Shown here: positions 5,126-24,492 of the stretch, one piece after another
Numbering within the stretch: the stretch's first letter is position 1
Layout of the letters: every line of letters starts with the position of its first letter
Assembly (NCBI GenBank): GCA_024278345.1
Contig: JAJRTK010000105.1
Coordinates: 1 to 27,620 of the forward strand
Source: a bacterium
Lineage (GTDB): Bacteria; CSSED10-310; JAJRTK01
Length of the DNA stretch: 27,620 nt
Direction of reading: 5' to 3'
Translations under genes and position numbers: made by a program
Notes under the pieces: generated by a model
Database searches by the model: none
The model's input: only the letters and a program-made list of their open reading frames with translations
What the model was told of the DNA's origin: nothing

Positions 5126-6304
5126 TCACTGGTGATGGTGGCGGCTTTCCGCAAGGAATGGATCACGCTTGGGGAAATACTCAGCCTTCCCAAACTGCCA
5201 GGCAAACGCAAGGAAGAGTATCCCGATGGTGCCAAGAGCCCCAGCAACCTCCCACAACCCAAACGGCGGAGTCGTTGGCGAAAACGAAGGGAAAATCATG
5301 ATGTAGAGGTCAAGCCAGTGCCCGATCATAAGGACAACTCCCACTCGAAACAGAACGCGCTCGTTCCGCTTCGCCCCTCGAGACAAAAGGAAGAAGAAAG
5401 GCACGACCCAGTTCACGACCATATTCGCTAGGAACAAAGGTTCCCAGGCACCGCTGGTGCGCTTTACGAAATAGACGACCTCTTCACTCAAATTCGCATA
5501 CCAGATGAGCATGTATTGGCTGAACCAGATGTACATCCAGAAGGTGGTAAACCCGAACAACAATTTGCCTAGATCGTGAAGATGCTCTTCGGTGACCATG
5601 TCCACTAGGATACCGCGCCAACGGAGCCAGACTAGAAGCACGAGAATCGTAGCCAGCGCGTTCACGAAGATTCCGGAAAAGTAGTAGATAGCGAAGATGG
5701 TGCTGTACCAGTCGGGCTCTAGCGACATCACCCAATCAAAGCTCGCCACGGAAACCGACAGGGCGAAAAGCACCAGGAATCCCGCCGAAAGCTTGATGTT
5801 ATTTCTTGTATGATCGTCATCGCCGTCTTCATCCTGTTTCCGAGAATTGGCAATGATCGCCCTCGCGAACCCCAGCCAAATCACCAGGCAGATCGCTGCG
5901 CGGGCTAGAAAAAACGGGACACCGAACCAGACGGTCTTGAAGCCGACGTCATGATGCTCCGCGCCACCAGTCAACTCCAACCAAGGGAACAGGCCAGAAA
6001 CTCCAATCAGCAACGCCGCAACCATGATGAGCGTGCCCACCGGGAGGGTTCCGGTTAACGCCTCCGGAACGCGTCGCAGCACAACGCACCAACCAGCCCC
6101 CGAAACATAGGTAATCGCTAAGAAGAACAGCGCTCCCAGTGCTAGGCCCAGAAGATAATGTCCTCCGAGCAACAGGTTGAGCCACGCTCGCTCTGGAGCC
6201 AGAACAGCTCCGAGCAGAAGTCCGGCCCCCCCGATGACAGCAAAAACCGTGGTGAGAGTGCGAAACCTTTCAGGCAACTCAAAGGTCCTGGCTTGCGGGT
6301 TCAT
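5126..6304 (-). CDS. actF: Alternative complex III subunit ActF (quinol:cytochrome c oxidoreductase membrane subunit)
   Basis: A polytopic membrane protein of 392 residues, about ten hydrophobic helices, homologous to ActC/NrfD-type quinol-binding subunits. Supporting stretches include ASFDWVMSLEPDWYSTIF, typical of ActF, and MYIWFSQYMLIWYANLSEE. I start it at the ATG at 6304 (MNPQARTFELPERF), which has GGGGAGG upstream and overlaps the actE stop as ATGA; the frame extends 37 codons further up, but that part lies inside actE. The C-terminus ends in a His-rich ESRHHHQ. It is the last gene of the act module and of the operon. Role: part of the membrane quinol-oxidising module of alternative complex III; its exact share in proton handling is not known from this sequence. 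Confidence 0.92.
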   Translation of the reverse strand: MNPQARTFELPERFRTLTTVFAVIGGAGLLLGAVLAPERAWLNLLLGGHYLLGLALGALFFLAITYVSGAGWCVVLRRVPEALTGTLPVGTLIMVAALLIGVSGLFPWLELTGGAEHHDVGFKTVWFGVPFFLARAAICLVIWLGFARAIIANSRKQDEDGDDDHTRNNIKLSAGFLVLFALSVSVASFDWVMSLEPDWYSTIFAIYYFSGIFVNALATILVLLVWLRWRGILVDMVTEEHLHDLGKLLFGFTTFWMYIWFSQYMLIWYANLSEEVVYFVKRTSGAWEPLFLANMVVNWVVPFFFLLSRGAKRNERVLFRVGVVLMIGHWLDLYIMIFPSFSPTTPPFGLWEVAGALGTIGILFLAFAWQFGKAEYFPKRDPFLAESRHHHQ

Positions 6305-6939
6305 TGAACGACCTCCCCTGCCGCTGGCTGGTCTGCTGGGTGTTGCTTGTTCTCCGTGGGGGTCACCTTCGCCGATTGTTGCAACTTGTTTTGGACGTAG
6401 AGAATCGTCCTCCAACGGTCGACCGGCATGACTTGGACGGCATAGCCAGGCATATTACCCTGCCCGTATGTGAGGAGATGATACATTTGGCCGGCTGGCA
6501 TGGCTTTCGCTTTGTCCGACAACAAAGAGGGTGGAGCCGGATAGCCTCTTTTGACCACGGGTCCATGTCCAGTCCCATCTTTGTCGTGGCAGATGGCGCA
6601 GTACGTTCGAAACAGGTTGGCTCCGCGGTTTTTAGCAGCCATATCGTCAGAGCCGAAGGGATTGCTGAGCTCGCGACCGGCTCTTTCCGCATCCTCTTTG
6701 GTCGCCTGATAGTGAAGCGGCGTGGTGCCCCGCGGGATCGTTCCTTCCACGGGCCTTTGCAGAGTTTTTCCATCGGGAAATACCGGATTGTCTGAATATG
6801 TGTCGTAAGGAACCGAGTAAACCATCTCCGGCAAAAACTCGTAGTTGCGCTGGGTGATGTCTGGCTTGAGAAGCCAATTTAGGGCGAAGATACCTATGAC
6901 GACGATAAGCAGCGGGACGTTGGTAGAGTTTATGGACAT
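6301..6939 (-). CDS. actE: Alternative complex III subunit ActE, membrane-anchored monoheme cytochrome c
   Basis: A 212-residue c-type cytochrome with one heme site, CAICH (about residue 114), and a distal Met candidate in GNMPGYA. An N-terminal hydrophobic helix (VPLLIVVIGIFALNWLL) has no lipobox Cys, so it is probably an uncleaved membrane anchor; ActE of some other bacteria is a lipoprotein. The region after the anchor (FLPEMVYSVPYDTYSDNPVF) is characteristic of ActE. It overlaps actD by one base (TAATG) and actF by four. Role: takes electrons within alternative complex III and hands them to soluble or membrane-bound cytochromes in the periplasm. Confidence 0.93.
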   Translation of the reverse strand: MSINSTNVPLLIVVIGIFALNWLLKPDITQRNYEFLPEMVYSVPYDTYSDNPVFPDGKTLQRPVEGTIPRGTTPLHYQATKEDAERAGRELSNPFGSDDMAAKNRGANLFRTYCAICHDKDGTGHGPVVKRGYPAPPSLLSDKAKAMPAGQMYHLLTYGQGNMPGYAVQVMPVDRWRTILYVQNKLQQSAKVTPTENKQHPADQPAAGEVVQ

Positions 6940-7469
6940 TAGCCCTGACCTCCTTCCTGACGCTCTTCCACTTTTACCGTGTTGAATCGCTTGAAAATTC
7001 TCTGAACCTTGGCCACATCGAATGTTGAATCTTCCTGCTCCAAAACAAGGACAAATCGGTCATTCGTGACTCGAATATCAGGCATGATTGGTTTCTTGCC
7101 AGGAAACAGTCTAGAACTCCAAAAGAAAGCAAAGACCGTGCTCAAACCGGCAAAGAGCACCATGACTTCGAAGGTAATTGGCACGTACGCCGGAAGCGAA
7201 TTCCATGGTTTGCCGCCCACATTGATCGCCCAATCCGACGCTGTGGTCCAGAACTCGAACCAGACCTTGAACAGGGCGCCAAACAGGCCCAGTGCGAAGC
7301 ACACCCAGGGCAAACGAGATGGAGCAAAGCCCGCGGTTCGTTCCAGGCCATGGACGGCGTAAGGCGTGTAGACGTCCACGATCTTGTAGTTCAATTCGCG
7401 AACCTTCTTGACGACACCGACAATGTCTTCCTCGCGCTCGAAGGTCCCAAGGAGGTATCGTTGACTCAT
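6939..7469 (-). CDS. actD: Alternative complex III subunit ActD (DUF3341 family)
   Basis: A 176-residue protein with the ActD/DUF3341 architecture. A cytoplasmic N-terminal domain ([20 protein letters not shown], then [15 protein letters not shown]) is followed by two membrane helices ([20 protein letters not shown] and [20 protein letters not shown]) and a C-terminal domain ending in Glu/Gln/Gly residues. No cofactor motif is present; the family is thought to be structural in complex III. Its start overlaps the actC stop by four bases (ATGA), and GGAGG-like sequence lies upstream. The order actC-actD-actE-actF is canonical. Confidence 0.93.
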
Positions 7470-8842
7470 CTTGATCCACTCCTAACCGATCGGTGGCCAT
7501 GGGAGAGCACGCCTTTGACTTCCGCCATGGCGATGACTGGAAGAAACCTGCAGAACAGGAGGAAGCCCGTAAAAAAGAGGCCAAAGCTACCCAAAAGCGT
7601 GAGGACCTCGATAAGAGTTGGCGTGTAGTACGTCCAGCTAGATGGTAAATAGTCGCGATGGAGTGACGTGACAACGATGACGAAGCGCTCGAACCACATA
7701 CCTACGTTGATCAGAATCGTCAGGACAAAGACCCATGCGACATTCCGCCGGATGCGCTTGAACCACAGCAACTGTGGCGAGATGACGTTGCAGAGCACCA
7801 TGGTCCAGTAGGCCCATGCAAAAGGACCCAGAGCCCGGTTCTTGAACAGGAAGGTCTCGTACGGATTCTCCGAGTACATGGCGATGAAGAACTCGGTGGC
7901 ATACGCCAGGCCCACGATGCTCCCGGTAACGATGATAAGTTTCGACATCACATCCAAATGGCGCAGCGTGATGTAGTCCTCAAGCCCCATTACCTTGCGG
8001 GCAATGATCATGAGCGTCAGGACCATCGCCATTCCAGAAAAAATGGCTCCGGCAACGAAGTATGGCGGCAGAATGGTCGAGTGCCAACCCGGGATCACCG
8101 CCGTCGCGAAATCCCAGCTAACAATGGTATGCACTGAGACAACGAGCGGAGTCGCAAGACCCGCCAGAAGCAGATAGAGCACCTCATACCGATTCCAAGT
8201 CCGCAGTGATCCGTTCCAGCCGAGGCTCAGGAGGCCGAAAATCTTCTTCCGGATTCCGGCCTTCGCTCGGTCTCGAATTGTAGCCAGGTCAGGAAGCAAA
8301 CCGACGTACCAGAAAACGAGTGAGATCGTGAAATAGGTCGAGATTGCAAAAAAATCCCACACAAGGGGCGAGCGGAAGTTGACCCAGAGCGACCCCCGCA
8401 TGTTGGGGTAGGGAAACATCCAAAATGCGAGCCACGGTCGGCCCATATGAATGAGAGGAAACAATCCGGCACACATCACCGCGATGATCGTCATCGCTTC
8501 CGCCGCGCGGTTGACTGAGGTGCGCCACCTCTGGCGGAAGAGGAAGAGCACCGCGGAAATCAGCGTTCCCGCGTGTCCAATCCCGATCCAGAAAACAAAG
8601 TTGGTGATATCAAAAGCCCAGCCAACCGTTCTGTTGAGTCCCCAGGTTCCGATGCCAGTGGCAACCTGATAGGTAATCGCCGCTGCCCCGATGAGTAGAA
8701 AGAGGAGCGATGCCATGAAAGCCCGCCACCAGAGGGGGGAAGTTTTTCTTTCCAGCACCCCGCTCACGTCGTTCGTGACCTCTCCCAGAGACTTGTTGCC
8801 GGCAATCAACGGCTGGCGGAGTGTTGAGTAGAGATCAGCCAT
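7466..8842 (-). CDS. actC: Alternative complex III subunit ActC (NrfD/PsrC-like quinol-binding membrane subunit)
   Basis: A 458-residue integral membrane protein with about ten helices, of the NrfD/PsrC family. Characteristic parts are [21 protein letters not shown], the loop [14 protein letters not shown], and [35 protein letters not shown], all conserved in ActC. It oxidises quinol at the membrane next to the iron-sulfur part of ActB. The start overlaps the actB stop by eight bases; the stop overlaps actD by four. Length and order are as in known act operons. No oddities seen. Confidence 0.95.
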
Positions 8843-11800
8843 GGCTCTCTCCAGTTACCTTACTGCTCTCTCTGTTACGCACTACCCGAAGATAGGCGAC
8901 TGAGGGCTCTAGGTTGAGATCCTTGAGCAGAGTATATTTTCGTGGACTCTTGAGGTTTTTCGAAACTTGGCTTTCAGGGTCATTGACATCTCCGAAGACA
9001 ATCGCCGACGCCGGACATGACTGCTGGCAGGCCGTGACAATCGCGCCATCTTCCATGGGCCGCCCCTCAACCTTCGCCTCGATCCTCGCCTCAGCGATCC
9101 TCTGGACACAGAACGAGCACTTTTCCATGACGCCCCGGGAGCGAACCGTAACATCCGGGTTTAGGACAAGGTTTTCCCTTTCGTTCTCAAAGGAATACTT
9201 GAACCAGTTGAAGCGCCGGGTTTTGAAAGGGCAGTTGTTGGCGCAGTACCGAGTTCCCACACACCGGTTGTAAATCTGTGCGTTGAGCCCATCCGATGTA
9301 TGGACCGTTGCCAGCACAGGACAAACCGTTTCACAGGGTGCGTTGTCACAATGATGGCACATCATTGGCTGATGGGTGACGGCAACATCCGGCCCGGCAC
9401 CGGCATAGTAGCGATCAATACGCAGCCAGTGCATTTCGCGTTTCCTCAACACCTCATCTTTGCCGACGACCGGAATGTTGTTTTCCGCCTGACAGGAGAT
9501 TACGCAAGCCGAGCAACCCGTGCATGCGGTCAAGTCCACCACCATCGCCCAGTGTTCCTTGACGTACTCGTGGTCCCGCGGCCAAAGATTTGCCTCCGGC
9601 CCGTGCCGGGCTTGGGATCCGGCGGTGGGATCTTTGAGGAAAGCCGACAAGGTTGTTTCCTGGACAATCGGTCGAGGCGGCGCACCCGGATCTACATTCT
9701 TCGGCAGTTCCAGCGAATGGTAATCCTGCGTGCGGGCCAGCATCCGCTGTCGATGGGTCTTCTCGATCTTCACGCCCTGGACATGGAGGCGGCGCCCCGC
9801 CGAAGTCATTCCCACGAATGGCGCCGCTGAGCCTCCTAGAGTTTGCCCCTTCTCCACGGTGAGCTGCTTTTGGAACCAGTCCGGGCCCACCGCGAAGAAT
9901 CTCTCGGTACCCATTCGCCCGTAACCAAGGGCCACGGCCACAACCTTCGGATGCTGTCCCGGCTGAATCAGAACTGGCAATTCCAGGGTGTGACGAACCT
10001 CACCGACGTTCAGCCGAACGATGTCGCCATCTTTAACGCCCAGTTGCTCGGCCAGCGCGGAAGAAAGAGACGCATAGTTGTCCCACACAACCTTGGTGAT
10101 GGGATCGGGCAGTTCCTGGAGCCACGGGTTCACGGCATGGCGCCCGTCTTGGATGGCCACCTTGGGATAGAGCAGCAAAGTCAGCAAGTCCTTGCTGCGC
10201 CCTTTCCCGGGTTCACCGTGACTCAAAGGCTCCTCGTCCCAAGCGGCGCTGACCTGACGGGGCGAGACAATAGCGGAAGGGTGGGGCTGGAGCCCTGCAA
10301 ATCCGCGCCGCACTGTGCGATCCCAGAAATCTTGAAAGCGCCCGCCAACTGTTTTGCTCGAAAAATGGATCTCGCGCCAAGTCAGCTCAACCAGCTCGCG
10401 GACAGGCTTCCCTGCTCCCGACCAAATCGCGAGACTCTCCGACATTGAACGGCTGTTCCCCAAAGGATGCAGAGCGGGCTGCATCACGGCTGGAATCCCC
10501 GCCACAGGCTCGGCATCGCCCCAGGACTCCAAGTAGTGGGGAATCGGGAGCAGAAAGTGAGCGGCAGCGGAAGTCTCGTTGTTGTGAGTGGTCATAGAAA
10601 CCACAAGGGGCGTCGCCTTCAAGGCTGCCGCCACCTTTTCGCCATTTGGCAAATCGTAAACTGGATTGGCATCGAGTACCAAGAATGCATCGACCTCGCC
10701 GGCCTCTAGCTCGCGCACGAGAAGATCCAACTCCGCATCGTCGCCCGCCCTTTGTTGGGACGGACGCTCGATATCGAGAGTTGCCCCATAATTGCCCAGC
10801 AAATCGTTAATGCTATTGCATAACATTTGGACCTCGATATCCTGGCTCCCACTGATGACCAGAGAGCGGCCCTGGGTGCCTGCCAGGCGTTCCGCGAGGT
10901 CGATCAGGACACGACGATCCACAGCTCCGTGGTCCGGTGTTTTCTTTTCTTCGTCCAGCTTCTCAGGCAACGGCGGGCCGGCGCTGACTTGGCTCGACAG
11001 AAGCTTGCCCAACTCCCGGAGCAAGCCGGCTAGGTCGGATGGCAAAACAGAGTGGCGGCGATCCGCCTTGCTTCCGGTGAGCGACATCCGCGCTTCGAAT
11101 TGGACATGATAGGAGAACGAAGTTTGTTTGGAATCCAGGCACCGGCCCGCAGTGTAACTCTTCGCAAACTCGACGGGGGAGATCCATGAGCCAAGGAAAT
11201 CGGCATCGAAGCTTGCGATCACCTCGGCCTTCTCAAAGTCGTAGTGAGGCAGCACCCGAACGCCGTGGCTACGCTCATGGGCGTCGAGGACAGCGGAGAC
11301 GGAGATCGCGTCATAACTGATGTGCTTCGCGCGAGGGAATTTCTGGAGGAACCCTTTGATGCAACGGTGCAATGTAGGACTGTTCACGGTCTCCGACAGC
11401 AGGCGAATCTTGCCACCTTTCCGCCCGATCTCTCCCAGTCGTGCAATGATCTGAGCATCGACCTCGGGCCAGGCTTTTTTTCGACCATTGGCGAAGGGTT
11501 CCATGAGACGCTGGCTATCGTAAAGCTCCAGAATTGATGCCTGACCGATAGCACAGAGCCCGCCTCGAAAAATTGGGTGCTCGGAATTTCCTTCGAGCTT
11601 GATGGGGCGTCCGTCGCGACACTTGATGAGTAGGCCGCAGGCTGAAGGACAAGCTCCGCACGTCGATGCGTACCAGAGTGGCTTGCCTGGCGTCAGCTCC
11701 GGGGGCTGGTTGAGATATGGAATTGCTCGCTCCACTGGGCCTCTCTCACAACCCGCTACCATTGTCCCGGCGAAAACAAATCCCAGAGTCTCGAGAAAGC

Positions 11801-11972
11801 TCCGCCGGCTTACCCCGGAAACCTCATCACGGTTTTGCCGCGGCGTCTGATCCACCGGCGGGCTCGGCGGGCGGTGAGCCTCGACGGAGCGCGGGACCGC
11901 GGCTCCGATGGCGTCAGCGGTTTGGTCACCACCAATGTAGAGTTTGTCTTGTTTCCTGGTCGATTTTGGCAT
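8835..11972 (-). CDS. actB: Alternative complex III subunit ActB (molybdopterin-oxidoreductase-like domain fused to iron-sulfur domain)
   Basis: A 1045-residue fused protein. A twin-arginine signal ([11 protein letters not shown], Arg56-Arg57) precedes a hydrophobic stretch ending VAGC (Cys75), which resembles a lipobox. The N-terminal two-thirds resembles molybdopterin oxidoreductases, with a C-x2-C-x3-C start ([11 protein letters not shown]); in the Act family this part is regarded as lacking molybdenum. The C-terminal part holds the iron-sulfur motifs [11 protein letters not shown] (near 817), [14 protein letters not shown] (near 870), [14 protein letters not shown] (near 902), CSFC (near 950) and CQQSCP (near 980). 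In the third motif Thr replaces a Cys, which fits a 3Fe-4S cluster beside three 4Fe-4S clusters. Exported, faces the periplasm. The ATG at 11972 has GGAG seven bases upstream. Confidence 0.95.
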
Positions 11973-12057
11973 TTACGATCTCCACAGGACTCTAAGAGAA
12001 CCCACTCGCGATCTTGGCGGCGAATGATTTTCCACTGAGTCCCCGGCGGCCCGGGCG

Positions 12058-12085
12058 CCGGAACCGCTAGGTCGCTTGGTTCCGG
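12058..12085. repeat. Hairpin in the actA-actB spacer
   Basis: An 8-bp inverted repeat CCGGAACC / GGTTCCGG with a 12-base loop, in the 134-base gap between actA and actB. This is the longest gap inside the operon, so the structure may influence processing or relative expression of ActA and the rest of the complex. A GC-rich run (GGCGGCCCGGGCGCC) lies next to it. Confidence 0.5.
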
Positions 12086-12106
12086 AGCTTGAGGGCCTAG
12101 AGCGTT

Positions 12107-12808
12107 TTACATGTGACAGACCGAGCAATCGGTCGATGGTTTGAGACCGGAACGTGCAACGGCGGAATCCGTGCGTCCTCGGTGACAGTTGACACACCAA
12201 CCCATGGAGAGATTTTCCACTTGTCGGACACGTTCCATGGTTTCCACGGGGCCATGACATTTCTGGCAAGCAAGTCCGGCGGCGACGTGAGGCCGATGAT
12301 CGAAGTGAACAAAATCGGGTAGTTTATGCACGCGCACCCATTGGATGGGTCGAGGCTGTTTTCCTGGCTCCGGGGCGGACAGCTCTTTGCCAAGGCCAAG
12401 AGCGTCATAGAGTTTCCGGAGCTCGGGAGACTCTACGGCCCGGGGCTCTCGGTTTTCCTTCTCAGCCAATTGCTCTTCTCCGCGAATTGCGCTTCGGGAT
12501 GCGGTCACAAAGCGGTGGCAATTCATGCAAACGTTGGCGGGGGGAATCCCGGCGTACCGGCTCCGTTCGGCGCCGAAATGGCAATACTGGCATGGCGCTT
12601 CCAACTCTCCGGCATGAAGCCGATGGGAGAAGGCAATGGGCTGCACGGGCTCATAACCTTGGTGATCTCCGGGAAGGCGGAATGAGGTCGCCACGCCGGA
12701 CAGGCTCACAAGGCCCATCACCGCCGCCACGGAGAGGACGATGGTCAGCACTCCTCCGTTGAAGAACTGGCCATTCTCAGCACGGAATTTCTGCGTTCTT
12801 TCTTGCAT
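12107..12808 (-). CDS. actA: Alternative complex III subunit ActA, pentaheme cytochrome c
   Basis: A 233-residue membrane-anchored multiheme cytochrome. Five CxxCH sites are present: CQYCH (residue 73), CMNCH (94), CQKCH (181), CVNCH (205) and CSVCH (228, at the very C-terminus). One membrane helix lies near residues 18-40 (GGVLTIVLSVAAVMGLVSLSG). Five hemes is the usual number for ActA. I place the start at the ATG at 12808 (MQERTQKFRAENGQFF), which overlaps the end of narK2 by 32 bases; there is no in-frame start after the narK2 stop that would keep the anchor. This overlap ties the act module to the nar genes. Role: electron transfer from ActB towards ActE. Confidence 0.93.
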   Translation of the reverse strand: MQERTQKFRAENGQFFNGGVLTIVLSVAAVMGLVSLSGVATSFRLPGDHQGYEPVQPIAFSHRLHAGELEAPCQYCHFGAERSRYAGIPPANVCMNCHRFVTASRSAIRGEEQLAEKENREPRAVESPELRKLYDALGLGKELSAPEPGKQPRPIQWVRVHKLPDFVHFDHRPHVAAGLACQKCHGPVETMERVRQVENLSMGWCVNCHRGRTDSAVARSGLKPSTDCSVCHM

Positions 12809-14411: not shown

Positions 14412-15987
14412 TGTAGTTCCCCTGTGACAGTGGTACTGGCTTCACCCGCGTCGAGCGATCCTCAATTTCCTGCGAAAGCCGCGGCGCCTGCGTCGTCATC
14501 ATTTTGCGAATTACCGTGTGCATCCAGATGACACAGATAAGCACGAGGACGAAGAAGAACATCCAGCAACTGGTCCAGAGGCCTGTTCCGCGAAGCAAGT
14601 AACCGAAGATCACCGGGCAGACAAAACCTCCAAGACCGCCAAGAACCCCCACGATACCACCCACAACTCCCACGTCGTTGGGGAAATAGTCGGGAATGTG
14701 CTTGTAGACGCCGGCTTTGCCGATTCCCATGACAGCGCCCATAATCAAGCTCAGAAGGGTGAAGATCCAGACATTGGCCTGAAAGAAAATATGGGTAACT
14801 CCACGAGCCAGCAGTTGTTTTTTTGTGACCTTCTCTCCCTCTTTTACGGCAGGCTCCTGCCACGACATGGCGCGGGGCAGGATGAGTAGTCCCGAAACTC
14901 GCTCTTCAGGGGTGACAAGCTCTCCAGCCTTGGGAACTAGGGCGTAAGCTTTCTCTCCAAGCTTCTCCGTGGTGACGACAATCTTCGTCGGCGCTACCTC
15001 GGTGACCGTGCCCGCAACTTTGGCCATGATCCCACTGCCCGGGGCATGAATATCCATTTGGGGGATGATCAAAAGCGCACAGCAGACCAAAGAGGTCCCA
15101 AAAACCCAGTACATGACACGGCGGGCACCCCAAGCATCAGACATCCAGCCGCCGAGAGCTCGAATGATTCCCGAGGGAAGGCTATTCGCCGCTGCCAGGG
15201 CGCCAGCCATTGCCACCGGCATAGCGTAGACATTCACGTAGTACGGGACGAGCCACTGGGCCAAAGCCACAAAACCACCGAAGACAAAGAAGTAGTAGAG
15301 CCCAAAACGCCAGACCCGCATCTCCTTGAGCGGCTGCAAGCGTTCGCGCATACTCTTCTGCACACTACCTGGAGGCAATTTCGTGGTGGTCACCAGGAAA
15401 AAAAGAACACCGGTGGCAAAGAGCAAAACGGCGTAGAATTTCGGTAGCTGACGCCAACCCTCTATCTGCTCGCCGTAATTGGTGAGATAATTCAGGACGT
15501 GGGGCGCACCCAGACTGGTGAGTGCCGCGCCGGCGTTGCCAGCGCCAAAAATTCCTAAAGCCGTCCCCTGAAGCTCCTTGGGGAACCAGACAGAGGTGTA
15601 GGCAATGCCGATGGCAAAGCTGGTGCCCACCGTCCCGAATCCAAGGCCCGCCAGCATGAAACTCCAGTAACTGTGGCAGTAGGAAACCATATACATGGGA
15701 ATCGCGCTGAAAATAAGAAGGGCTGAAAAGACGAACTTTCCGCCCCACTTGTCCGTGGCAATTCCCAGCGGCAGCCGAAAGATGGCACCGGTCAGTACAG
15801 GGATTCCGATGAGCCAGCCCATTTCCGCGGGGCCCCAATTGTAGATCCCGTTATCCACGAGAAAAGTGATGAGGACCCCATTCATCATCCAAGCAGCAAA
15901 GCAGACTGTGAATGCAAAGGTATTCGCCGCCAGCATTCTCCAGGCTTTCTTGCGGCCTTGCGAGGAGAGGTCGGGATTCATTTCCAT
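14398..15987 (-). CDS. narK1: Nitrate transporter, NarK1 type, with large periplasmic insertion
   Basis: A major-facilitator protein of 529 residues. Signatures are TM2 Arg71 (GAIFRLPLG), GTSFAIGIAYTSVWFP with GIFGAGNAGAA, TM8 Arg276 (SGIIRALGGWMSDAWGARR), and GIGKAGVYKHIPDYFP with GGIVGVLGGLGGF. This pattern fits the NarK1 group of nitrate importers, often proton-coupled. Unusual is a soluble segment of roughly 90 residues (about 311-404) between TM9 and TM10, predicted periplasmic, with beta-like sequence (GTVTEVAPTKIVVTTEK) and a Lys/Glu-rich end; most relatives have a short loop here. The gene lies 65 bases after narI and overlaps narK2. Confidence 0.88.
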   Translation of the reverse strand: MEMNPDLSSQGRKKAWRMLAANTFAFTVCFAAWMMNGVLITFLVDNGIYNWGPAEMGWLIGIPVLTGAIFRLPLGIATDKWGGKFVFSALLIFSAIPMYMVSYCHSYWSFMLAGLGFGTVGTSFAIGIAYTSVWFPKELQGTALGIFGAGNAGAALTSLGAPHVLNYLTNYGEQIEGWRQLPKFYAVLLFATGVLFFLVTTTKLPPGSVQKSMRERLQPLKEMRVWRFGLYYFFVFGGFVALAQWLVPYYVNVYAMPVAMAGALAAANSLPSGIIRALGGWMSDAWGARRVMYWVFGTSLVCCALLIIPQMDIHAPGSGIMAKVAGTVTEVAPTKIVVTTEKLGEKAYALVPKAGELVTPEERVSGLLILPRAMSWQEPAVKEGEKVTKKQLLARGVTHIFFQANVWIFTLLSLIMGAVMGIGKAGVYKHIPDYFPNDVGVVGGIVGVLGGLGGFVCPVIFGYLLRGTGLWTSCWMFFFVLVLICVIWMHTVIRKMMTTQAPRLSQEIEDRSTRVKPVPLSQGNYNVAS

Positions 15988-16003
15988 CGAGATCGTTTCC
16001 TTT

Positions 16004-16023
16004 CTGCTCTTAGCTGCTCTTAG
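16004..16023. repeat. 10-bp tandem duplication in the narI-narK1 spacer
   Basis: CTGCTCTTAG occurs twice in a row at 16004-16013 and 16014-16023, just upstream of the narK1 ribosome site (AAAGGA). It looks like a small slippage duplication; no function is evident. Confidence 0.6.
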
Positions 16024-16052
16024 CTTCCATCAGCCGCCCTCACGGGGTGAGC

Positions 16053-16748
16053 TTAGGCGGTTCGCCGAATTCCATACCACCGAACCACTTGCGTCTTGCG
16101 CCACGGATAGGGGTTTGGCAGCACCAGGATATGAACGAGGCGGGTGAACGGGAAGAAAGCAATCACGATGAAGGCATTGACAATATGAAGTTTAACCGCG
16201 AACGGCATGGCAGCGATGTAGCTGATGTTCGGACTCAGTTTCACCAGCGACCAGAGCCAAGGCACCACCGCCGCCGCGAACCAGGAGGAACCCCAGGGGT
16301 GAAAGAGAGCCACGTAAACCCCGGAAGCCACCTGAACCAGCAAGAGCAGATAAAGGACCCAATCCGACGGGGAGGTCACAACCCTGACCTTGGAAGAGCT
16401 GACACGCCGGATGATTACGGCCAAAAGCCCCACAAGCGTGAACAGCGCCAAAGCCATACCCGTAAGCTCTAGTAGGATTAGGCGGATGGGGCTGGCATTC
16501 CACGACAGGATCTGAGCGGGCAACAGAAATGCGACCACGTGACCGATCAGGACGAAGATGATCCCAAAGTGAAAGGGGACCATGCCCCAAAAGTGGTCTT
16601 CATTCTCCAGAAACTGCGAGGATAAGCTAGAAAACGTGAACGTCCGTCCTCGGTACCTCTGGATAGTGACCAGGAAGAAGATCACCATGGCGACGAACGG
16701 GAACACGGCGAAGAAGAGCTGGTCCAGGTAATGGGCGAAACTACTCAT
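16053..16748 (-). CDS. narI: Respiratory nitrate reductase gamma subunit (cytochrome b)
   Basis: A 231-residue membrane cytochrome b with five helices that anchors NarGH and oxidises quinol at the periplasmic side, sending electrons through two b hemes to NarH. The four heme ligands are visible: His60 and His70 (PFHFGIIFVLIGHVVAF) and His188 and His206 (KLHIVNAFIVIAFFPFTRLVH), matching His56, His66, His187 and His205 of E. coli NarI. The ATG at 16748 has GGGAGG upstream and overlaps narJ by eight bases. Length is normal. Confidence 0.96.
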   Translation of the reverse strand: MSSFAHYLDQLFFAVFPFVAMVIFFLVTIQRYRGRTFTFSSLSSQFLENEDHFWGMVPFHFGIIFVLIGHVVAFLLPAQILSWNASPIRLILLELTGMALALFTLVGLLAVIIRRVSSSKVRVVTSPSDWVLYLLLLVQVASGVYVALFHPWGSSWFAAAVVPWLWSLVKLSPNISYIAAMPFAVKLHIVNAFIVIAFFPFTRLVHILVLPNPYPWRKTQVVRWYGIRRTA

Positions 16749-17283
16749 GGGTCACCTCCCCATGTCGTGCTTGTAAGAAGGCGTGGATCGCGGCGATGAC
16801 GTGTTTGTATGGGTTTTCTTTACCTTCCATGGCATCCATCATCTTTTTGAGAGCCGGTTGAACGTTCACGCGCCAAAAATCGGCGGAATGTGTCGGTGTC
16901 AATCGATGGAGAGCCAGAAGCGCATGGCTAAAGTGGTCCGCAAGCTCCCCGCTCTCCTCGATCCCCAGTACGGCGAGCATCTTCCGCATTTTCACCATAA
17001 AGCTTCCCCGCTCGTAGGTTTCGCCAAACAAGTGCCACCCAAGCTCCAAGACGCAGCTGGGATTGAGATCGAAAGTCCTCGTAAACAGCTCTTGAAAACC
17101 ATGGAGTGACAGCGACTTCACCTTTTCGAGGAAATGCTCCATCTCCTTGGCGGCCAAGGGATTGGTTTCCACAAGCGCTGAAGCGCAGTTGCGGCAGTGC
17201 TCCCCGTAGCCAGCCCGTGGATAGGTAAGAATCGTGGCGAGCTGTTCGTACACGGAGCTGGATTTGAGCGTGCAAACCATCAT
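16741..17283 (-). CDS. narJ: Nitrate reductase assembly chaperone NarJ
   Basis: A 180-residue helical protein of the NarJ/TorD chaperone family, which binds the NarG N-terminus and guides molybdenum-cofactor and iron-sulfur insertion; it is not part of the final enzyme. Family parts include VYEQLATILTYPRAGY at the start and LELGWHLFGETYERGSFMVKM in the middle. Two ATGs stand side by side (17283 and 17280) after GGAGGGG; the first overlaps the narH stop as ATGATG, the second is better spaced. An upstream extension of the same frame lies inside narH and is not used here. Position between narH and narI is canonical. Confidence 0.94.
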   Translation of the reverse strand: MMVCTLKSSSVYEQLATILTYPRAGYGEHCRNCASALVETNPLAAKEMEHFLEKVKSLSLHGFQELFTRTFDLNPSCVLELGWHLFGETYERGSFMVKMRKMLAVLGIEESGELADHFSHALLALHRLTPTHSADFWRVNVQPALKKMMDAMEGKENPYKHVIAAIHAFLQARHGEVTHE

Positions 17284-18773
17284 CCCCTCCGCGGTCCGGA
17301 CAGGAAGCCAAAGCCGGCTGATTGCTTGCGTTCTTGAGGATCCTGAAGCATCTCGATGGCCTCTTCGCGATGCATCGGCGGGATCACGAAACGATCGTCG
17401 AAAGTGCAGAGGGTCGTAAGCCGGTAGATAGCGTCGGCCTCTTCCTTGCTGCACTCGGCCCGCTGTAGCAACTTGGCAGCCGCTTCTTCAGTGACATCAC
17501 CAACCGTAAGCGCCCGACGATAGAGCCGAATCGCCTTGAGCTTCTCCAATGCGAAACGAATGGGAGCTTGGTTTCCGGCGCCGAAAAGCTGGGCCAAATA
17601 GGCCAGTGGCACTCGGGAATCGTCTAAGCTATGGAAAAGATCGGTGGAAACCTGATCGATGGTGCCATCTTCCTTCCGCGACATCACGGGCGAAAGTGGC
17701 GGCACATAGAAAAGCATCGGCAAAGTGCGGTACTCGATGTGGGGTGGGAGAGCAATCTTCCACTCCTTGACCATCTTGTAGACTGGCGATTTCTGTGCCG
17801 ATTCGATGACACTCTCGTGAATACCTGACCTCTGGGCCTCCGCCATGATTTCGGGGTCGAACGGGTCCAAAATCATGGAGCGGTGAGCCTCGATGAGCTC
17901 AGAATCCTTTCGGGCGGCAACCTCTTCGATACGGCTCGCGTCGTAGAGAAGTACCCCAAGATATCGAATGCGGCCCACGCAGGAATGGAAGCAGGCGGGG
18001 GCCTGCCCCGTTTCGAGCCGAGGAAAGCAGAGGATGCACTTCTCGGATTTGCCTGTGAACCAGTTGAAATAAACTTTCTTATAAGGACACGCTGAGATGC
18101 ATGATCGCCAGGCGCGGCAGCGCTTTTGGTCCACTAAGACGATACCGTCTTCGCCTCGCTTGTAAAGAGCTCCTGACGGACAAGAGGCCACGCAGGCTGG
18201 ATTCAGGCAGTGATTGCAGATACGAGGAAAGTAGAAGAAGACAAGCCGCTCGATGGCTTGCAGTTGCATCCGCTGCTCGGGAGTCAAACCTTCCAAGTTG
18301 GGGTCGTTCGCCGCGTACAGCTTCGAGCCGCCCAGGTCGTCGTCCCAGTTGGGGCCGGCCTTGATGTCCATGTACTCACCCGTCACCATGGAGATAGGCC
18401 GTGCCGTTGGCTGGTCCGCGCCTTCAGGCGCGTTGAACAGATTGTCGTATTCGTAGGTCCATGGCTCGTAATAATCGTCCATGGACGGCATATGGGGATT
18501 GTGGAAGATGTTCGCTATGATCCGGGCCCGGCTGGTGGACTTGAGAACCGGGTCGCCATTGCTGTTGAGCTCCCAGCCGCCCCGGTATTTATCTTGATCC
18601 TCCCATTTCGTCGGAAACCCAGTCCCTGGTTTGGTTTCGACGTTGTTCCACCACATGTACTCAGTGCCTTTACGATCCGTCCACACGTTCTTGCAGGCAA
18701 CACTGCAAGTGTGGCAGCCGATGCACTTGTCTAAGTGAAAGACCATGGAGATTTGAGAGCGCACGTCAATCAT
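17280..18773 (-). CDS. narH: Respiratory nitrate reductase beta subunit (iron-sulfur)
   Basis: A 497-residue iron-sulfur protein passing electrons from NarI to NarG on the cytoplasmic side. Cluster motifs: CIGCHTCSVAC (residues 17-27), CNHCLNPACVASCP (186-199), CRAWRSCISACPYK (219-232), and CILC (246-249) with CFHSC (261-265). Trp222 replaces a Cys in the third motif, the known mark of the 3Fe-4S cluster in NarH. Length matches the family (about 490-510). The start ATG lies ten bases after the narG stop with GGAG seven bases upstream; the stop overlaps narJ. Confidence 0.97.
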   Translation of the reverse strand: MIDVRSQISMVFHLDKCIGCHTCSVACKNVWTDRKGTEYMWWNNVETKPGTGFPTKWEDQDKYRGGWELNSNGDPVLKSTSRARIIANIFHNPHMPSMDDYYEPWTYEYDNLFNAPEGADQPTARPISMVTGEYMDIKAGPNWDDDLGGSKLYAANDPNLEGLTPEQRMQLQAIERLVFFYFPRICNHCLNPACVASCPSGALYKRGEDGIVLVDQKRCRAWRSCISACPYKKVYFNWFTGKSEKCILCFPRLETGQAPACFHSCVGRIRYLGVLLYDASRIEEVAARKDSELIEAHRSMILDPFDPEIMAEAQRSGIHESVIESAQKSPVYKMVKEWKIALPPHIEYRTLPMLFYVPPLSPVMSRKEDGTIDQVSTDLFHSLDDSRVPLAYLAQLFGAGNQAPIRFALEKLKAIRLYRRALTVGDVTEEAAAKLLQRAECSKEEADAIYRLTTLCTFDDRFVIPPMHREEAIEMLQDPQERKQSAGFGFLSGPRRG

Positions 18774-18783
18774 CTGAAACTCC

Positions 18784-21700
18784 TTACCACTTCAGGTCTG
18801 ACAGCTTGCGGACGATCACATGGGTGTCGCGGTTGCAGCCTGTGGGACCCCAATAGTTGAAGTGATACGTAAACTGGCCATAGCCACCCGCCATCAGGTT
18901 TGGCTTCAATCGAGTTTTGGTCAGACTGTTGTGGCCACCGGCTCTTCGGTAGTTTCGGAGCGGCGATTTTGGAACCGAGTAGGTACGTTCCGGTGAGTGG
19001 TACTGGATGCAGATTCCACGGGGCAATCTAGCGCTCACGACCGCACGAGTGACGACGACCCCGTGATCGTTGAAGATCTCGACCCAGTCGTTGTCTACAA
19101 TGCCGATCTCATCGGCATCACGATCGTTCATCCAGAGGGGTTCAACCCCTCGAGACAACGTACACATGCGCTGGTTGTCGCCGTAGGTCGAGTGGATGTG
19201 CCACTTACCATGAGGCGTCAGGTAGTTGAGGGTCGCGGCCGGATGCCCGTTTGGACCTGCAACGCCCGTAGAACGGTTCTCACCTTCGGCCTGCCGCTCC
19301 ACTGCGGTTTCATGACCCAGGTGACCCAGACCAACGTCATTGACTGTCCCACGAAGCATCTTGAACTTGTCGCCGCTCTGCTTCTCGCAAAACACGAGGT
19401 CCGCATATTCAATGGGCTGTGGCTTCGGTTTGTAGGTTGGGAGATGTTCACCGTACTGGATGTAGATCAGGTGATCCAAATAAAAATGCTGACGCCCGGT
19501 CAACGTGCGCCAGGGAACCAAGGCTTCCACGTTGTAGGTAAAGGGTGAGTAAGGCCGGCCGTTCTCGATGAGCCCACTCCACATGGGACTGTTGTTAAAG
19601 CGATGGGGTCGAATCTGCAATGACTGGTAGTCAGCCCTCCGGCCACGGTTCTTCTCTGCTAGGTGGGCCAGCGGCAGTCCGACTTTCTTCTCCATATTCT
19701 TGTACGACCTGTAGGCCAATTCACCGTTGGTCACCGTCGCAAGATTCAGGATGAGATTGCAGGCATGTTCGTCCTCGGCAAGAGAGGGGAACTTTTTACC
19801 ATTCCACTCGAAGACAGGATGCGTGCTCAGCATCTCGTCGTATACATCGTCGATGTGATAGTGCGTGCCATGGGCCCCAAGGCCATTTTTCCGAGCATTT
19901 GGCCCGAAAGAGCAGTACCGGTTGTAGAGATTTGCATAGTCGCGGGTAACAACCTTCAAACCTGGCATGGTCTTCCCCGGGATCGCTTCGCATTCCCCGG
20001 TGTACCAGTCCTTGAGATCTGGCTGAGCAATTTCGGCCGGTGAATCATGTGCCAGAGGAGATGCAACCACGTCTTCCACCGGATCGGGAAAATGCTTCTT
20101 GGCAAGCTCAGAGAACTTCTTGGCGATGTCGCGGAAGATCCTCCAATCACTTCTGGACTCCCAGCAAGCCGGCACCGCCTTGGACAATGGGTGGATGAAG
20201 CTGTGCATATCCGTAGAGTTGAGGTCGGCCTTTTCGTACCAGGTGGCGGCAGGCAGAACGATGTCGGAGTAGAGAGCCGACGTGTCCATCCTGAAGTTGA
20301 GGTCCACGACCAAGTCCATCTTCCCCGTTGGCGCCGGCGTCCTCCACTGGACATCCCGCACGGAATCCTCTGCCAGATCCTCGGCGACGGTGTTGGTGTG
20401 TGTGCCCAGATAATGGCGCAAGAAGTATTCGTGTCCCTTGGCACTGGACATCAAGGCATTGCCGCGCCAGATGTACCAGACTCTCGGCCAGTTTTCCTCG
20501 GCATCGGGATCTTCAACCGCGAATCGGAGTTTCTTCGACTTGAGCTGTTCCACGACCCAGGCCGCAATCTCAGCTTCAGTCTTGGCGCCTGCGGCTCGAG
20601 CTTCCTTCACGAGCTCAATGCTATTGCGGTTAAACTGAGGGTTGAAGGGAAGCCAGCCACCTCGAACCGCTCGAATCTGGCGGTCGATGGAATGGCCTTG
20701 GGCGAAGGTGTTCTCGTCCTGGTGACGGGGGACCGTGTGGTAATCGGTGAATTGCCGCTCGTAACGCCACTGATCGGTATGCACGTAGTGCCAGCTCGGG
20801 GCATTCTGCAGCCGAACCGCCGGCATCCAGTCCTTGGCAAGAGCGACTGCGCCCCAGGATTCTCCGGGAGCAAGTTTTTCCTGCCCGACATAATGGGCCA
20901 AGCCACCACCATTGACACCGATACAGCCGCAAAACATCAGGGCATGGATCCCGGCCCGGTACATGAGATTCGCATGGTACCAATGGTTGATGCCCGCGCC
21001 AATGATGATGGTGCATTTGCCTTTGGTGAGCTCAGCGGTTCTCCCCCACTCCATGGCAAAGCGGATGAGGTCTTTCCGATCAAGCCCTGTGTACCGCTCT
21101 GCCCATGCGGGTGTATAAGGTGCATCGGCATCATTTTCGTCTTTGGGATAATCGCCTGAAAGTCCTCGCGATACTCCGTACTGCGCCATGAGCAAATCGT
21201 AAACCGTCGTGACCAGAACCTTCTCGCCGGTGGCGGTTTCGAGAGTCTTGACGGGAACGCCTCTGAAACAGACCTCCCCCTGGGAAAAATCGTCCAGCTC
21301 CACATCGATGACTTGGTCATGAGCATCCAAAAATGTCAACGCTGGGTCGATATCTTCGCCGGTGAGCCCGTCCTTGAGCAGTAGGTTCCACTTGCCCTGC
21401 TCTTTGCCCCACCGGAACCCCGAGCTGCCCATGGGCATTTTTGGGGAATCGGTCGTCTCGTCCCACATCAAGAACTTCCACTCGCCATTCTCTTCCTTGG
21501 CGTAGGGGCCCAGGCGGCCAGCGCGAAGCAACTGTCCCGGACGATAGACCTCGCCTTCCTTCTTCAACTCCACCAAGTACGGCGAGTCAGTGTATTGCTT
21601 CGTATAGTTGATGAAATAGGGGACTTTCTTTTTGTGGTGGTATTCGGTCAACAAGACGTGGTTGACCGCCATCCACCAAGCCCCGTCCTGGCCCGCATTG

Positions 21701-22572
21701 ATGGCCATCCATTCGTCGGCGTACTTCGCTACCTGGTTGAAGTCGGGTGCGAACACCCACATCTTGGTCCCGTTATAGCGTGCTTCGGCTGCGAAGTGGC
21801 AATCGGGCGTGCGCGTCATATTGAGGTTCGAGCCCATGACCGCAAGCAGCTTGGCATTGTACCAGTCCGCCGATTCCTGGACATCGGTTTGCTCGCCCCA
21901 AGTTTCGGGGGATGCGTTGGGCAGATCGCAGTACCAGTCGTAAAAGGAGAGGGAAACGCCTCCCATCAGTTGCAGCATCCGTGCGCCGGCCGCATAGCTA
22001 ATCATCGACATGGCCGGGATAGGCGAGAATCCGGCAATCCGATCCGGGCCGTACATCTGGATCGTGTGGAGGTTCGCTGCAGCCATGATTTCGAGCGCCG
22101 TGTCCCAATCGGCTCGGCGGAAGCCACCTTTACCTCGCGCTCTCTGCCATCGTTTGCGGCTTTCCGGGTTTTCCACAAGGGCACGCCAGGCCGCCACCGG
22201 CTCGCCGTGCTCGGCGCGGGCCTCTGACCAGAGATCCAACAGAGCTCCACGTATGTAGGGGTATTTCACTCGCAGCGGGCTGTAGAGATACCAGGAATAG
22301 GATATCCCGCGCTGGCAGCCTCGGGGCTCGTAGGGAGGAATTCCGGCTTCCAATGAGGGATAGTCGAGCCCTTGCATCTCCCAGGTGACGATCCCTTCCT
22401 TCACGTGGATCTGCCACGTACATCCGCCGGTGCAGTTGACACCATGGGTTGACCGGACGATTTTGTCATGCTGCCAACGATTCCGATAGAATTCTTCCCA
22501 GCCGCGATCTTGAGGGGCGACTTCGTCGCGAATCCAAGGAAGGGGAATCGAGCGTTTCTGATTTTTGTTCAT
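18784..22572 (-). CDS. narG: Respiratory nitrate reductase alpha subunit (catalytic, molybdenum bis-MGD)
   Basis: A 1262-residue catalytic subunit reducing nitrate to nitrite. His43, Cys47, Cys51 and Cys86 ([11 protein letters not shown] and PRGCQRG) form the N-terminal iron-sulfur ligand set with a His, as in E. coli NarG. Asp216 in YDWYCDLP corresponds to the molybdenum ligand. No twin-arginine signal is present, so the active site faces the cytoplasm, consistent with the NarK transporters encoded downstream. Length is normal (about 1,220-1,260). The ATG overlaps the stop of the upstream cytochrome gene (ATGA). The related cytoplasmic-type nitrite oxidoreductases cannot be fully excluded, but narJ, narI and two narK genes favour a nitrate reductase. 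Confidence 0.95.
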
Positions 22573-23495
22573 ACTATTTCTCCAACCAGGGGCCTGCGAA
22601 CCGCGCGAAAACGATAGCTCCAGATGGAATCCACCAACATCAGGCCCAACACGGCTCCCGCCAGGCCCAGCAGGAAGAGCATCAGTGACGGCGTCGCATC
22701 TTCGGCGCCTCCGGCTTTCGCCACATCCTCAAGGTAGGCCACAAGGCCTTCGATTTCATCAGAAGTGAGCGGTTTGGCTTGGAAAACCGGCCGCATCGTG
22801 GCCGTTGCCGGGGACAACAGCCAGGAGGCGAGGTTCTTGCGCCCCAGCATGCGCTCGTAAACCCGAGTCAAATCAGGGCCCAGCTTGCCTCCTCCGAAAA
22901 GGCCGATGTCTGTTACATGGTGGCAGCTTAGGCAAGAGGCTCCGCCATTTTCCAAGGGAAGCGAGCCGGTGAAAATGTCTCGCCCACGTGCAATATCACT
23001 GGCATCAAACGGTTCATCCGTGATGTGAAGGCCCGCGAATTGGGATTTCTCAAGAACCGACTCTCTGGAGATAAGCTCGAGGAGGGCGGCAGCCTTTGCT
23101 TTGTCGAGCCCCGGAATCTTCGGCATGATGACACCTCGAGCCGCATCCTTCATGGCCAGCGCATAGGCATCGCCTGCGTCGATAAGCCCCTTGGGGTTCG
23201 TCACGAACTCGATCAACCACTCCTGGTCTTTCCTTTTGGAAACGTTCTTCAAGTCCGGCCCTACAAGACGTCCTCCGCCCACCGTGTGGCAGCTCATGCA
23301 GTTTTGGCGGAAGTAGGCCTCAGTCTCTTGCCCCATGGCGGTCTCTACGTGGAGGACGCCGAAGCTGAGCAGAATCATCGCCCAACCCATCACCCTTGGT
23401 CTCGGGCGTGAGGAAGTTATGGCCTCGAGTCCGACTTGTTTCCTCCAGGTGAAGAAAACTGCTCTCCGGGAGCGGAGCGGGGAGAATTCCTTCAT
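22569..23495 (-). CDS. Membrane-anchored diheme cytochrome c heading the nar-act operon
   Basis: A 308-residue protein with two cytochrome c domains: CMSCH with a Met candidate in [10 protein letters not shown], and CLSCHH with a Met candidate in ATMRPVF. A signal-like hydrophobic stretch ([20 protein letters not shown]) follows a basic N-terminal region, and one membrane helix lies near the C-terminus ([22 protein letters not shown]). I start it at the ATG at 23495, with GGAGGGG eight bases upstream; an ATG at 23390 would give a shorter signal peptide but has a poorly spaced site. It overlaps narG by four bases. Thermus also has a diheme cytochrome gene (narC) at the head of its nar operon, so a comparable role in periplasmic electron transfer is likely, but homology is not shown here. 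Confidence 0.85.
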
Positions 23496-24346: not shown

Positions 24347-24492
24347 CTGGGAGCGAGTCTGTAAGGTGCGGACGGTGAAATGCTTTTGTGCTGTGCCGTG
24401 GGGCGTAACAGGGTCAGCAGGGCTAGGCCGTTGCCGGTCCGTGGAATGGCCTTGTGCAGTTCCGCGGGTTAGATGGAAAGGAAGGTTTGGGG

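Follow-up and report, generated by a model that had tools for sequence, protein, structure and literature searches.

The window analysed here, a stretch of 27,620 nucleotides, is the entire contig C24 of a 6.06 Mb MAG (completeness 87.9%, contamination 2.1%). Thirteen genes run along its minus strand from position 23495 to position 5126 in the order narC-narG-narH-narJ-narI-narK1-narK2-actA-actB-actC-actD-actE-actF, comprising a nitrate reductase (Nar) module followed by the genes of an alternative complex III (ACIII):

narC, 22569..23495, minus strand: membrane-bound diheme c-type cytochrome, Thermus NarC-like, first gene of the operon (PF00034 and PF13442)
narG, 18784..22572, minus strand: catalytic subunit of a cytoplasmic nitrate reductase (TIGR01580, 1468 bits, cut-off 1084)
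narH, 17280..18773, minus strand: iron-sulfur subunit (TIGR01660, 674 bits)
narJ, 16741..17283, minus strand: NarG assembly chaperone (PF02613; TIGR00684, below cut-off)
narI, 16053..16748, minus strand: diheme b membrane subunit (TIGR00351; alignment with E. coli and Thermus)
narK1, 14398..15987, minus strand: nitrate/nitrite MFS transporter (PF07690; TIGR00886, below cut-off)
narK2, 12777..14411, minus strand: nitrate/nitrite MFS transporter (TIGR00886 and NarU models, below cut-off)
actA, 12107..12808, minus strand: pentaheme cytochrome c subunit of ACIII with five CxxCH motifs (matches ActA of 6btm)
actB, 8835..11972, minus strand: fused MopB-like (B1) and FeS (B2) subunit (matches ActB of 6f0k and 6btm; PF04879)
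actC, 7466..8842, minus strand: predicted quinol-binding NrfD-like membrane subunit (PF03916; 6btm_C, 632 bits)
actD, 6939..7469, minus strand: PF11821 protein (9e-54, 182 bits, cut-off 25.7)
actE, 6301..6939, minus strand: monoheme cytochrome c with one CxxCH motif (PF13442)
actF, 5126..6304, minus strand: second NrfD-like membrane subunit and last gene of the conserved block, with a syntenic homologue in linked loci and no Pfam or NCBIfam match of its own

The preliminary description of this DNA had listed thirteen minus-strand genes with overlaps at most junctions, and all are present where it placed them, with overlaps at 9 of the 12 junctions: narC/narG (4 nt), narH/narJ (4 nt), narJ/narI (8 nt), narK1/narK2 (14 nt), narK2/actA (32 nt), actB/actC (8 nt), actC/actD (4 nt), actD/actE (1 nt), and actE/actF (4 nt; actF ATG at 6304). 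Its placement of the actA start 32 bases within narK2 was likewise borne out when the ATG of actA (12808) and the TGA end of narK2 (12777) were read from the sequence. For narJ, the GTG start given in the ORF list (237 aa) was rejected as too long and the ATG at 17283 taken. The remaining junctions are gaps of 10 nt (narG/narH), 65 nt (narI/narK1), and 134 nt (actA/actB); no terminator- or promoter-like site was called within the last of these, where an uncalled promoter could lie. FNR-type boxes upstream of narC gave no significant match in the window, and one of 20 upstream regions fell below 5% in shuffles. From this arrangement we infer that the nar and act genes are co-transcribed and would serve nitrate respiration.

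The first gene of the Nar module, narC, encodes a product with two CxxCH motifs and a hydrophobic C-terminal segment, which is 29% identical to the counterpart in the same position on the Thermus plasmid pTTJL1801; in related loci narC lies upstream of narG wherever the sequence allows. NarG aligns with E. coli NarG in the Mo-ligand region (YCDLP) and the FS0 motif and is 60–61% identical to Thermus NarG, the next best on plasmids reaching 46–48%. In the narK1 product, the transporter family model matches residues 17–309 only. The heme b ligands of NarI (E. coli H56, H66, H187, and H205) are kept in 58 of 58 aligned NarI, and an arginine occupies the position of E. coli Lys86 in 57 of the 58, that of the window included. 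Loss of the NarI quinol site was considered as proof of feeding by cytochrome c and rejected, given that K86R is found in Thermus too; the substitution thus marks the NarC type and not the link to act, and loss of the quinol site is not shown by it. Taken together, the predicted products of this module constitute a Thermus-type, NarC-containing nitrate reductase (NarCGHI with chaperone and transporters).

The solved ACIII structures of F. johnsoniae and R. marinus contain chains that match ActA, ActB, and ActC. ActB carries a Tat-type motif (SRRSFL), and in its B2 portion the cysteines between residues 817 and 986, predicted ligands for one [3Fe-4S] and three [4Fe-4S] clusters, are conserved as in other ACIII. 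The residues of ActC equivalent to His139, Asp169, and Asp253, which belong to the quinol site in R. marinus (PMC5928083), show no variation across all 47 linked ActC, among them that of the window. Judged by sequence, the act cluster is a genuine ACIII, with the checked quinol-site and proton-path residues conserved.

One departure from the solved complexes lies in ActB1, which holds a cysteine quartet (C105, C108, C112, and C140), a predicted FS0-type [4Fe-4S] site absent from the two solved ACIII compared. The R. marinus ActB1 was reported to lack a prosthetic group (PMC5928083), whereas the quartet is present in about 59 of 60 nar-linked ActB, so that an ActB1 devoid of a cofactor site does not describe these proteins. 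Such a lack does not define the ACIII family, since other ACIII without nar share the same quartet. We also considered the quartet as a nar-specific mark and rejected it, as it occurs in Myxococcota and in non-nar ACIII (L156, L159, L160, L161, and L164). It tracks instead the absence of oxidase genes, being found among non-nar ACIII in 17 of 18 loci without them versus 1 of 7 with them (Fisher p 3e-4, from hand-tallied loci with kinship ignored).

The linkage of nar to act recurs widely. Among the best 80 ActA relatives in a collection with one genome per species, nar genes lie directly upstream of act in 63, from at least 11 phyla, and in another genome, G116, a contig of 1.88 Mb has the identical gene order; this recurrence and the long contig rule out an assembly or binning artefact. 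Close relatives without the linkage are few (L090, L094, and L097). In the reverse direction, starting from NarH in a sample of 386 genomes, all five genomes with NarH 71–75% identical carry nar-act, on one contig in G334, G116, and G124 and across contig breaks in G301 and G203. The arrangement was found in none of ten NarC-type operons with NarH identities of 56–63%, three of which end at or near contig ends. The narK genes are variable, and several loci have narI as the immediate upstream neighbour of actA (L074, L082, L084, L086, L088, L109, L119, and L122); as narK genes come and go between narI and actA, the conserved link is that of nar to act. No conserved genes follow actF among the linked loci, where the neighbours are varied.

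Phylogenetically, the nar-linked ActC make up a single starred clade, in which 49 of the 52 rows are linked, 2 unlinked rows are nested, and 1 is truncated. The NarH of nar-act operons forms one clade (98/95), and the distances among NarG correlate with those among ActC (Mantel r 0.71, a value reached in 0 of 2000 permutations). The joining of the two modules proposed in the preliminary description thus stands as a physical and evolutionary unit, the linked Act and the linked Nar each being one clade across at least 11 phyla, and nar-act is a conserved super-operon of one Nar and one Act module.

ACIII gene clusters often precede oxidase genes, and direct transfer from ACIII to a caa3 oxidase has been described (PMC5928083). 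Most of the non-linked ACIII loci are followed by oxidase genes. By tblastn with CoxII, on which alone the count rests, 16 non-linked loci have CoxII homologues nearby and none of the nar-linked loci does; no oxidase genes occur after actF in the latter. An alternative raised beforehand, in which oxidase genes come after these act genes in close relatives and nar was inserted by chance, does not match what we found. A second ACIII of the other type is present in G000, G301, and G336, and this oxidase-linked extra copy in several nar-act genomes presumably serves oxygen. The genome of the window also has COX1-family genes, one cbb3-like by inspection, and their enzymes could accept ACIII electrons.

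On this evidence, the linked ACIII is probably a nitrate-dedicated quinol:cytochrome c complex. Menaquinol would be oxidised by ActC on the periplasmic side with translocation of protons, and electrons would exit via the [3Fe-4S] cluster of ActB to the hemes of ActA and ActE and on to a periplasmic cytochrome. Among the proteins that the operon encodes, NarC would be the most economical acceptor, and electrons may pass between it and heme b of NarI; in Thermus, NarC interacts with NarI, is required for Nar, and has been proposed as an electron carrier to periplasmic acceptors (PMC7694296). Both cytochrome c and, by direct reaction, quinol could in that case power Nar, and nitrate respiration would have two coupling sites in place of one. 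Least certain of all is the ActA-to-NarC transfer, which we regard as possible but doubtful. Only tentatively, then, do we suggest a cytochrome-c-driven nitrate chain in which ACIII pumps protons and electrons pass from ActA/ActE through NarC and NarI heme b to NarGH, possibly within a Nar–ACIII supercomplex. A similar cluster in Nitrobacter works between nitrite and cytochrome c (PMC7694296); such a chain would be the forward direction of the reverse reaction of the Nitrobacter oxidoreductase.

Working in parallel to Nar, the linked ACIII might instead provide a soluble cytochrome c in the periplasm to the enzymes of later denitrification or ammonification steps (NirS/NirK, Nor, Nos, or Nrf). 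This follows the published logic for ACIII in denitrifiers (PMC9270275), and related neighbours do occur at single loci, namely hemerythrin (5 of 57 downstream ORFs), SLAC1 (3), one match to Cytochrom_C552, and a NorB-like motif in locus L089. However, searches of six nar-act genomes, four being 99–100% complete, found neither NirK nor NrfA, which argues for a destination of the ACIII electrons other than these two reductases; NirS was not found in the genome of the window, the one genome that this search covered, and no N-oxide reductase genes recur beside the operon. We consider this reading rather unlikely, and the role in denitrification put forward in the preliminary description is accordingly weak. 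A functionally uncoupled pair of complexes, joined once and then spread by descent and transfer, would agree with trees that fit one origin of the linkage and with its lack in the few close relatives mentioned above. Such hitch-hiking is nonetheless improbable, as the tight spacing persists across the phyla despite the changing narK genes between nar and act, and the missing oxidase neighbours, together with the second ACIII in some genomes, favour selection for co-expression.

The direction of the Nar reaction must also be weighed, since sequence does not fix it between nitrite and nitrate, as likewise noted in PMC10732223. Run in reverse as a nitrite oxidoreductase, the enzyme would pass electrons from nitrite through NarI and NarC to an oxidase, with ACIII also reversed and reducing quinone. 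That the very similar Nitrobacter cluster acts as a nitrite oxidoreductase (PMC7694296) and that a broad clade unites Nitrobacter NxrA with the MAG NarG (PMC10732223) speak for this, but of the named NarG relatives found, nitrate reductases of Thermus are the closest, and we judge it very unlikely; the two NarK transporters and NarJ fit a nitrate reductase operon without deciding direction. Finally, a new NrfAH-like nitrite reductase was proposed for the act cluster in PMC10732223 on the basis of position and HHpred. With ActA, ActB, and ActC matching solved ACIII subunits, the checked quinol-site and proton-path residues kept, and no NrfA-family catalytic subunit in the operon, that assignment is scarcely credible.

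The preferred reading, a nitrate-dedicated ACIII, would bear on the history of the complex. The ActB family has been said to participate exclusively in aerobic respiration and was hence dated to oxygenated times (PMC10100899); this aerobic-only view is challenged by a whole clade of ACIII that, in at least 11 phyla, goes together with nitrate reductase and has an FeS site missing from the solved ActB. Our reading also corrects the published guess of a new nitrite reductase for the same cluster. If NarC accepts ACIII electrons, the operon would represent a better-yielding variant of textbook nitrate respiration, widespread in soil and sediment bacteria.

The arrangement itself is not new. Suarez et al. 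2023 (PMC10732223) described the same nar and six-gene cluster in Planctomycetota/KSB1 MAGs (13 instances, nar upstream of act), and ten of our linked loci come from the OFTM isolates of that MAG series (L098, L099, L102, L107, L117, L121, L124, L129, L132, and L136). They considered that the cluster might be an NrfAH-like nitrite reductase or belong to the respiratory chain, whereas the reading as a nitrate-dedicated ACIII is absent there; their main text includes no cross-phylum comparison and no placement of the cluster in an ACIII tree. In Thermogutta terrifontis, narGHI lies beside cytochrome bc1 genes and complex III was suggested to act in nitrate respiration (PMC5673643), with bc1 instead of ACIII and without NarC. 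Compared with the ACIII of Rhodothermus marinus and Flavobacterium johnsoniae (6f0k and 6btm), nar-act shares the six subunits in the same order, the pentaheme ActA, the monoheme ActE, the four FeS ligand sets of ActB2, and, in ActC, those residues of the quinol site and proton half-channel that were checked; it differs in that nar precedes act, as opposed to an oxidase following act, and in that ActB1 keeps the four-cysteine FS0-type site that the two solved proteins lack. The Thermus narCGHJIKT operon (PMC7694296) has the same order narC-G-H-J-I-K-K, a NarG at the 60–61% identity given above, and the arginine for Lys86 in NarI, yet it is flanked by nrcDEFN and regulators and not by act. In Thermus, NarC is considered a substitute for complex III, whereas the nar-act operon itself encodes such a complex.

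All 13 genes that the preliminary description had placed in the window were found at their positions, reading in the order narC, narG, narH, narJ, narI, narK1, narK2 and actA to actF. Neighbouring genes overlap by 1–32 nt at nine of the 12 junctions, the remaining three being gaps of 10, 65 and 134 nt. A scan of the coding strand called neither a terminator-like nor a promoter-like site within the 134-nt gap, which separates actA and actB, and promoter-like sites across the region were not above chance (9 vs. 8.0 in shuffles). We infer that the nar-act genes form one transcript. The window spans the whole of contig C24 in a 6.06 Mb metagenome-assembled genome, whose phylum is thinly sampled, with only seven same-phylum genomes in our genome sample. 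The features are as follows:

24454–26871, MMPL/RND-type transporter, divergent from narC and ~960 nt away
5126–23495, minus strand, narC to actF
8835–11972, minus strand, ActB with an FS0-type Cys quartet (residues 105, 108, 112 and 140)
3044–4678, 544-aa protein resembling an outer-membrane beta barrel, between actF and the F-type ATP synthase genes
1123–2019, F-type ATP synthase b
523–1065, F-type ATP synthase delta

The 544-aa barrel-like protein had no Pfam or NCBIfam match and no relative among the ORFs downstream of other nar-act loci. In NarK1 (14398–15987), the match to the NarK model is broken by a ~90-residue stretch after about residue 310.

NarG and NarH lie well above their curated NCBIfam cut-offs and NarI above its own. 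The Mo-ligand region and FS0 motif of NarG align with those of E. coli NarG, while NarI retains every heme ligand and has Arg at the position of E. coli Lys86, as in Thermus. Among named NarG relatives on plasmids, Thermus proteins rank first (60–61%), and the others listed reach at most 48%. The window ActA, ActB and ActC match chains of solved alternative complex III (ACIII), and of the 12 ActC positions checked, which are the published quinol-site and proton-path residues (PMC5928083), 11 are invariant across 47 linked sequences (nar genes directly upstream of actA), the twelfth showing a single Asp-to-Glu change. By sequence, the complex is therefore ACIII, and the same matches and kept residues argue strongly against a new nitrite reductase. 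Putative nar genes ahead of this six-gene cluster were described in 13 instances by Suarez et al. 2023 (PMC10732223), who suggested that it encodes either an electron-transport complex or an NrfAH-like nitrite reductase; the nar-act arrangement itself is thus not new. In the openly available papers searched, no statement was found on its phylum spread, single ACIII clade, oxidase absence or ActB Cys quartet.

The window ActA was scanned against one genome per species, and the neighbours of the best 80 relatives were identified by tblastn with the window proteins. In these loci, which were chosen by similarity from genomes that include incomplete MAGs, nar genes lie directly upstream of actA in 63 of 80; in two others the sequence breaks off shortly before actA, and the remaining 15 show no nar genes, one of them (L085) having only ~1 kb of upstream sequence. 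Linked loci span Acidobacteriota, Planctomycetota, Hinthialibacterota, Hydrogenedentota, Zixibacteria, Ignavibacteriota, Chlorobiota, Bacteroidota, Verrucomicrobiota, Calditrichota and KSB1. The nar-to-actA distance is −88 to +138 nt in 46 of the 50 measurable linked loci, and two of the 63 (L077 and L083) carry another ~1.2 kb gene between nar and actA. The narK genes are variable, with narI directly preceding actA in eight loci. Three loci without nar upstream, L090 and L097 (Planctomycetota) and L094 (Acidobacteriota), have ActA identities of 57–64% and the Cys quartet; L090 and L097 are nested within the linked ActC clade, and all three appear to be losses of nar linkage. Upstream of narC, the palindrome ACTTGTTCATCRACAAGT or a close form occurs at L068:196, L072:993 and L176:3715, its 14-base core having only one further occurrence in the 2.2 Mb of sequence searched. 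The palindrome is possibly a regulator site; it was not found in the window.

Since these loci had been picked by ActA, 386 broadly sampled genomes were searched in reverse with NarH, and the same set with ActD. All five other genomes with NarH 71–75% identical to the window's carry nar-act: on one contig in G334, G116 (a 1.88 Mb contig) and G124, with a contig break inside narI in G301, and with narCGH and actCDEF both at contig ends in G203. G334, whose contig equals that of locus L130 in length, is probably the same genome and so adds no separate instance. No act genes follow ten less closely related NarC-type operons (NarH 56–63%) in the available sequence, three of them (G003, G163 and G031) being cut by or near contig ends.

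Linked ActC sequences fall in one clade (99/92) of 52 rows, comprising 49 linked, two nested unlinked planctomycete and one truncated sequence, with oxidase-linked ACIII outside it. The NarH tree, which has few outgroup rows, places the linked loci in a single clade (98/95) within the NarC type. Both trees give strong support to a group of Hinthialibacterota, Hydrogenedentota, one Pirellulaceae and Verrucomicrobiota. This shared grouping suggests joint movement of the two modules, probably involving some interphylum transfer, in gene trees that do not distinguish transfer from vertical descent. NarG and ActC distances are correlated (Mantel r 0.71).

Of the non-linked ACIII loci, 16 have CoxII homologues nearby, whereas none of the nar-linked loci does, within a flank of ~3 kb after actF. 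Five instances with oxygen reductase genes following the cluster are on record (PMC10732223); oxidase neighbours therefore probably exist at some linked loci and were missed by the CoxII query or flank length. The window genome has a second ACIII (locus L059, contig C99, 7874–14401) lacking the extra Cys quartet, whose contig ends before any oxidase could show; in G301 (L178) and G336 (L193), a second ACIII of this type is oxidase-linked. Among 57 ORFs downstream of actF, mostly at nar-linked loci, there was no fixed partner gene, but five hemerythrin-domain proteins, three SLAC1 channels and single ScdA, MoaC and molybdopterin-synthesis proteins, a set compatible with NO stress and Mo enzymes.

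In ~59 of 60 nar-linked ActB sequences, the MopB-like half retains four cysteines (C105, C108, C112 and C140) that correspond to the Fe4S4 domain PF04879. The quartet is absent from the solved ACIII of R. marinus (6f0k) and F. johnsoniae (6btm), from Sphingobacteria and from the second copy of the window genome. As a nar-specific mark it was rejected, being present also in Myxococcota and in five of the other non-nar controls (L156, L159, L160, L161 and L164), only one of the five adjoining an oxidase; L138, L139 and L144 are likewise listed with it. It goes instead with a lack of neighbouring oxidase genes, and oxidase-linked ACIII generally lack it. Because it is homologous to the cluster site of the MopB family itself, the quartet would most simply be ancestral and lost in oxidase-linked lineages, on an ACIII tree that is midpoint-rooted only. 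If filled, it would extend the electron wire of ActB past FeS4.

We infer that nar-act serves nitrate respiration. In this scheme, ACIII would take electrons from menaquinol with energy conserved and would have to pass them to a periplasmic acceptor. Denitrification, one of the roles named in the preliminary description, finds little support: six nar-act genomes yielded neither NirK nor NrfA, apart from a weak NrfA-like stretch below the cut-off in G301, and the NirS search, confined to the window genome, gave only a short stretch resembling a propeller within a 2068-aa frame. The COX1-family oxidases of the window genome are possible acceptors. Tentatively, and with the balance of probability against it, ActA/ActE could instead feed NarC and so drive Nar; we propose this because the operon encodes just one other cytochrome c, NarC, and because there are precedents in Thermus, whose NarC interacts with NarI and is a proposed electron carrier linking Nar with acceptors in the periplasm, and in Nitrobacter, where a comparable set leads from the NarG homologue to cytochrome c (PMC7694296). 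The Thermus nar operon has the same gene order as the window, with the diheme cytochrome gene narC first (PMC7694296), and Thermogutta, with bc1 genes beside nar, offers a parallel on the same theme (PMC5673643).
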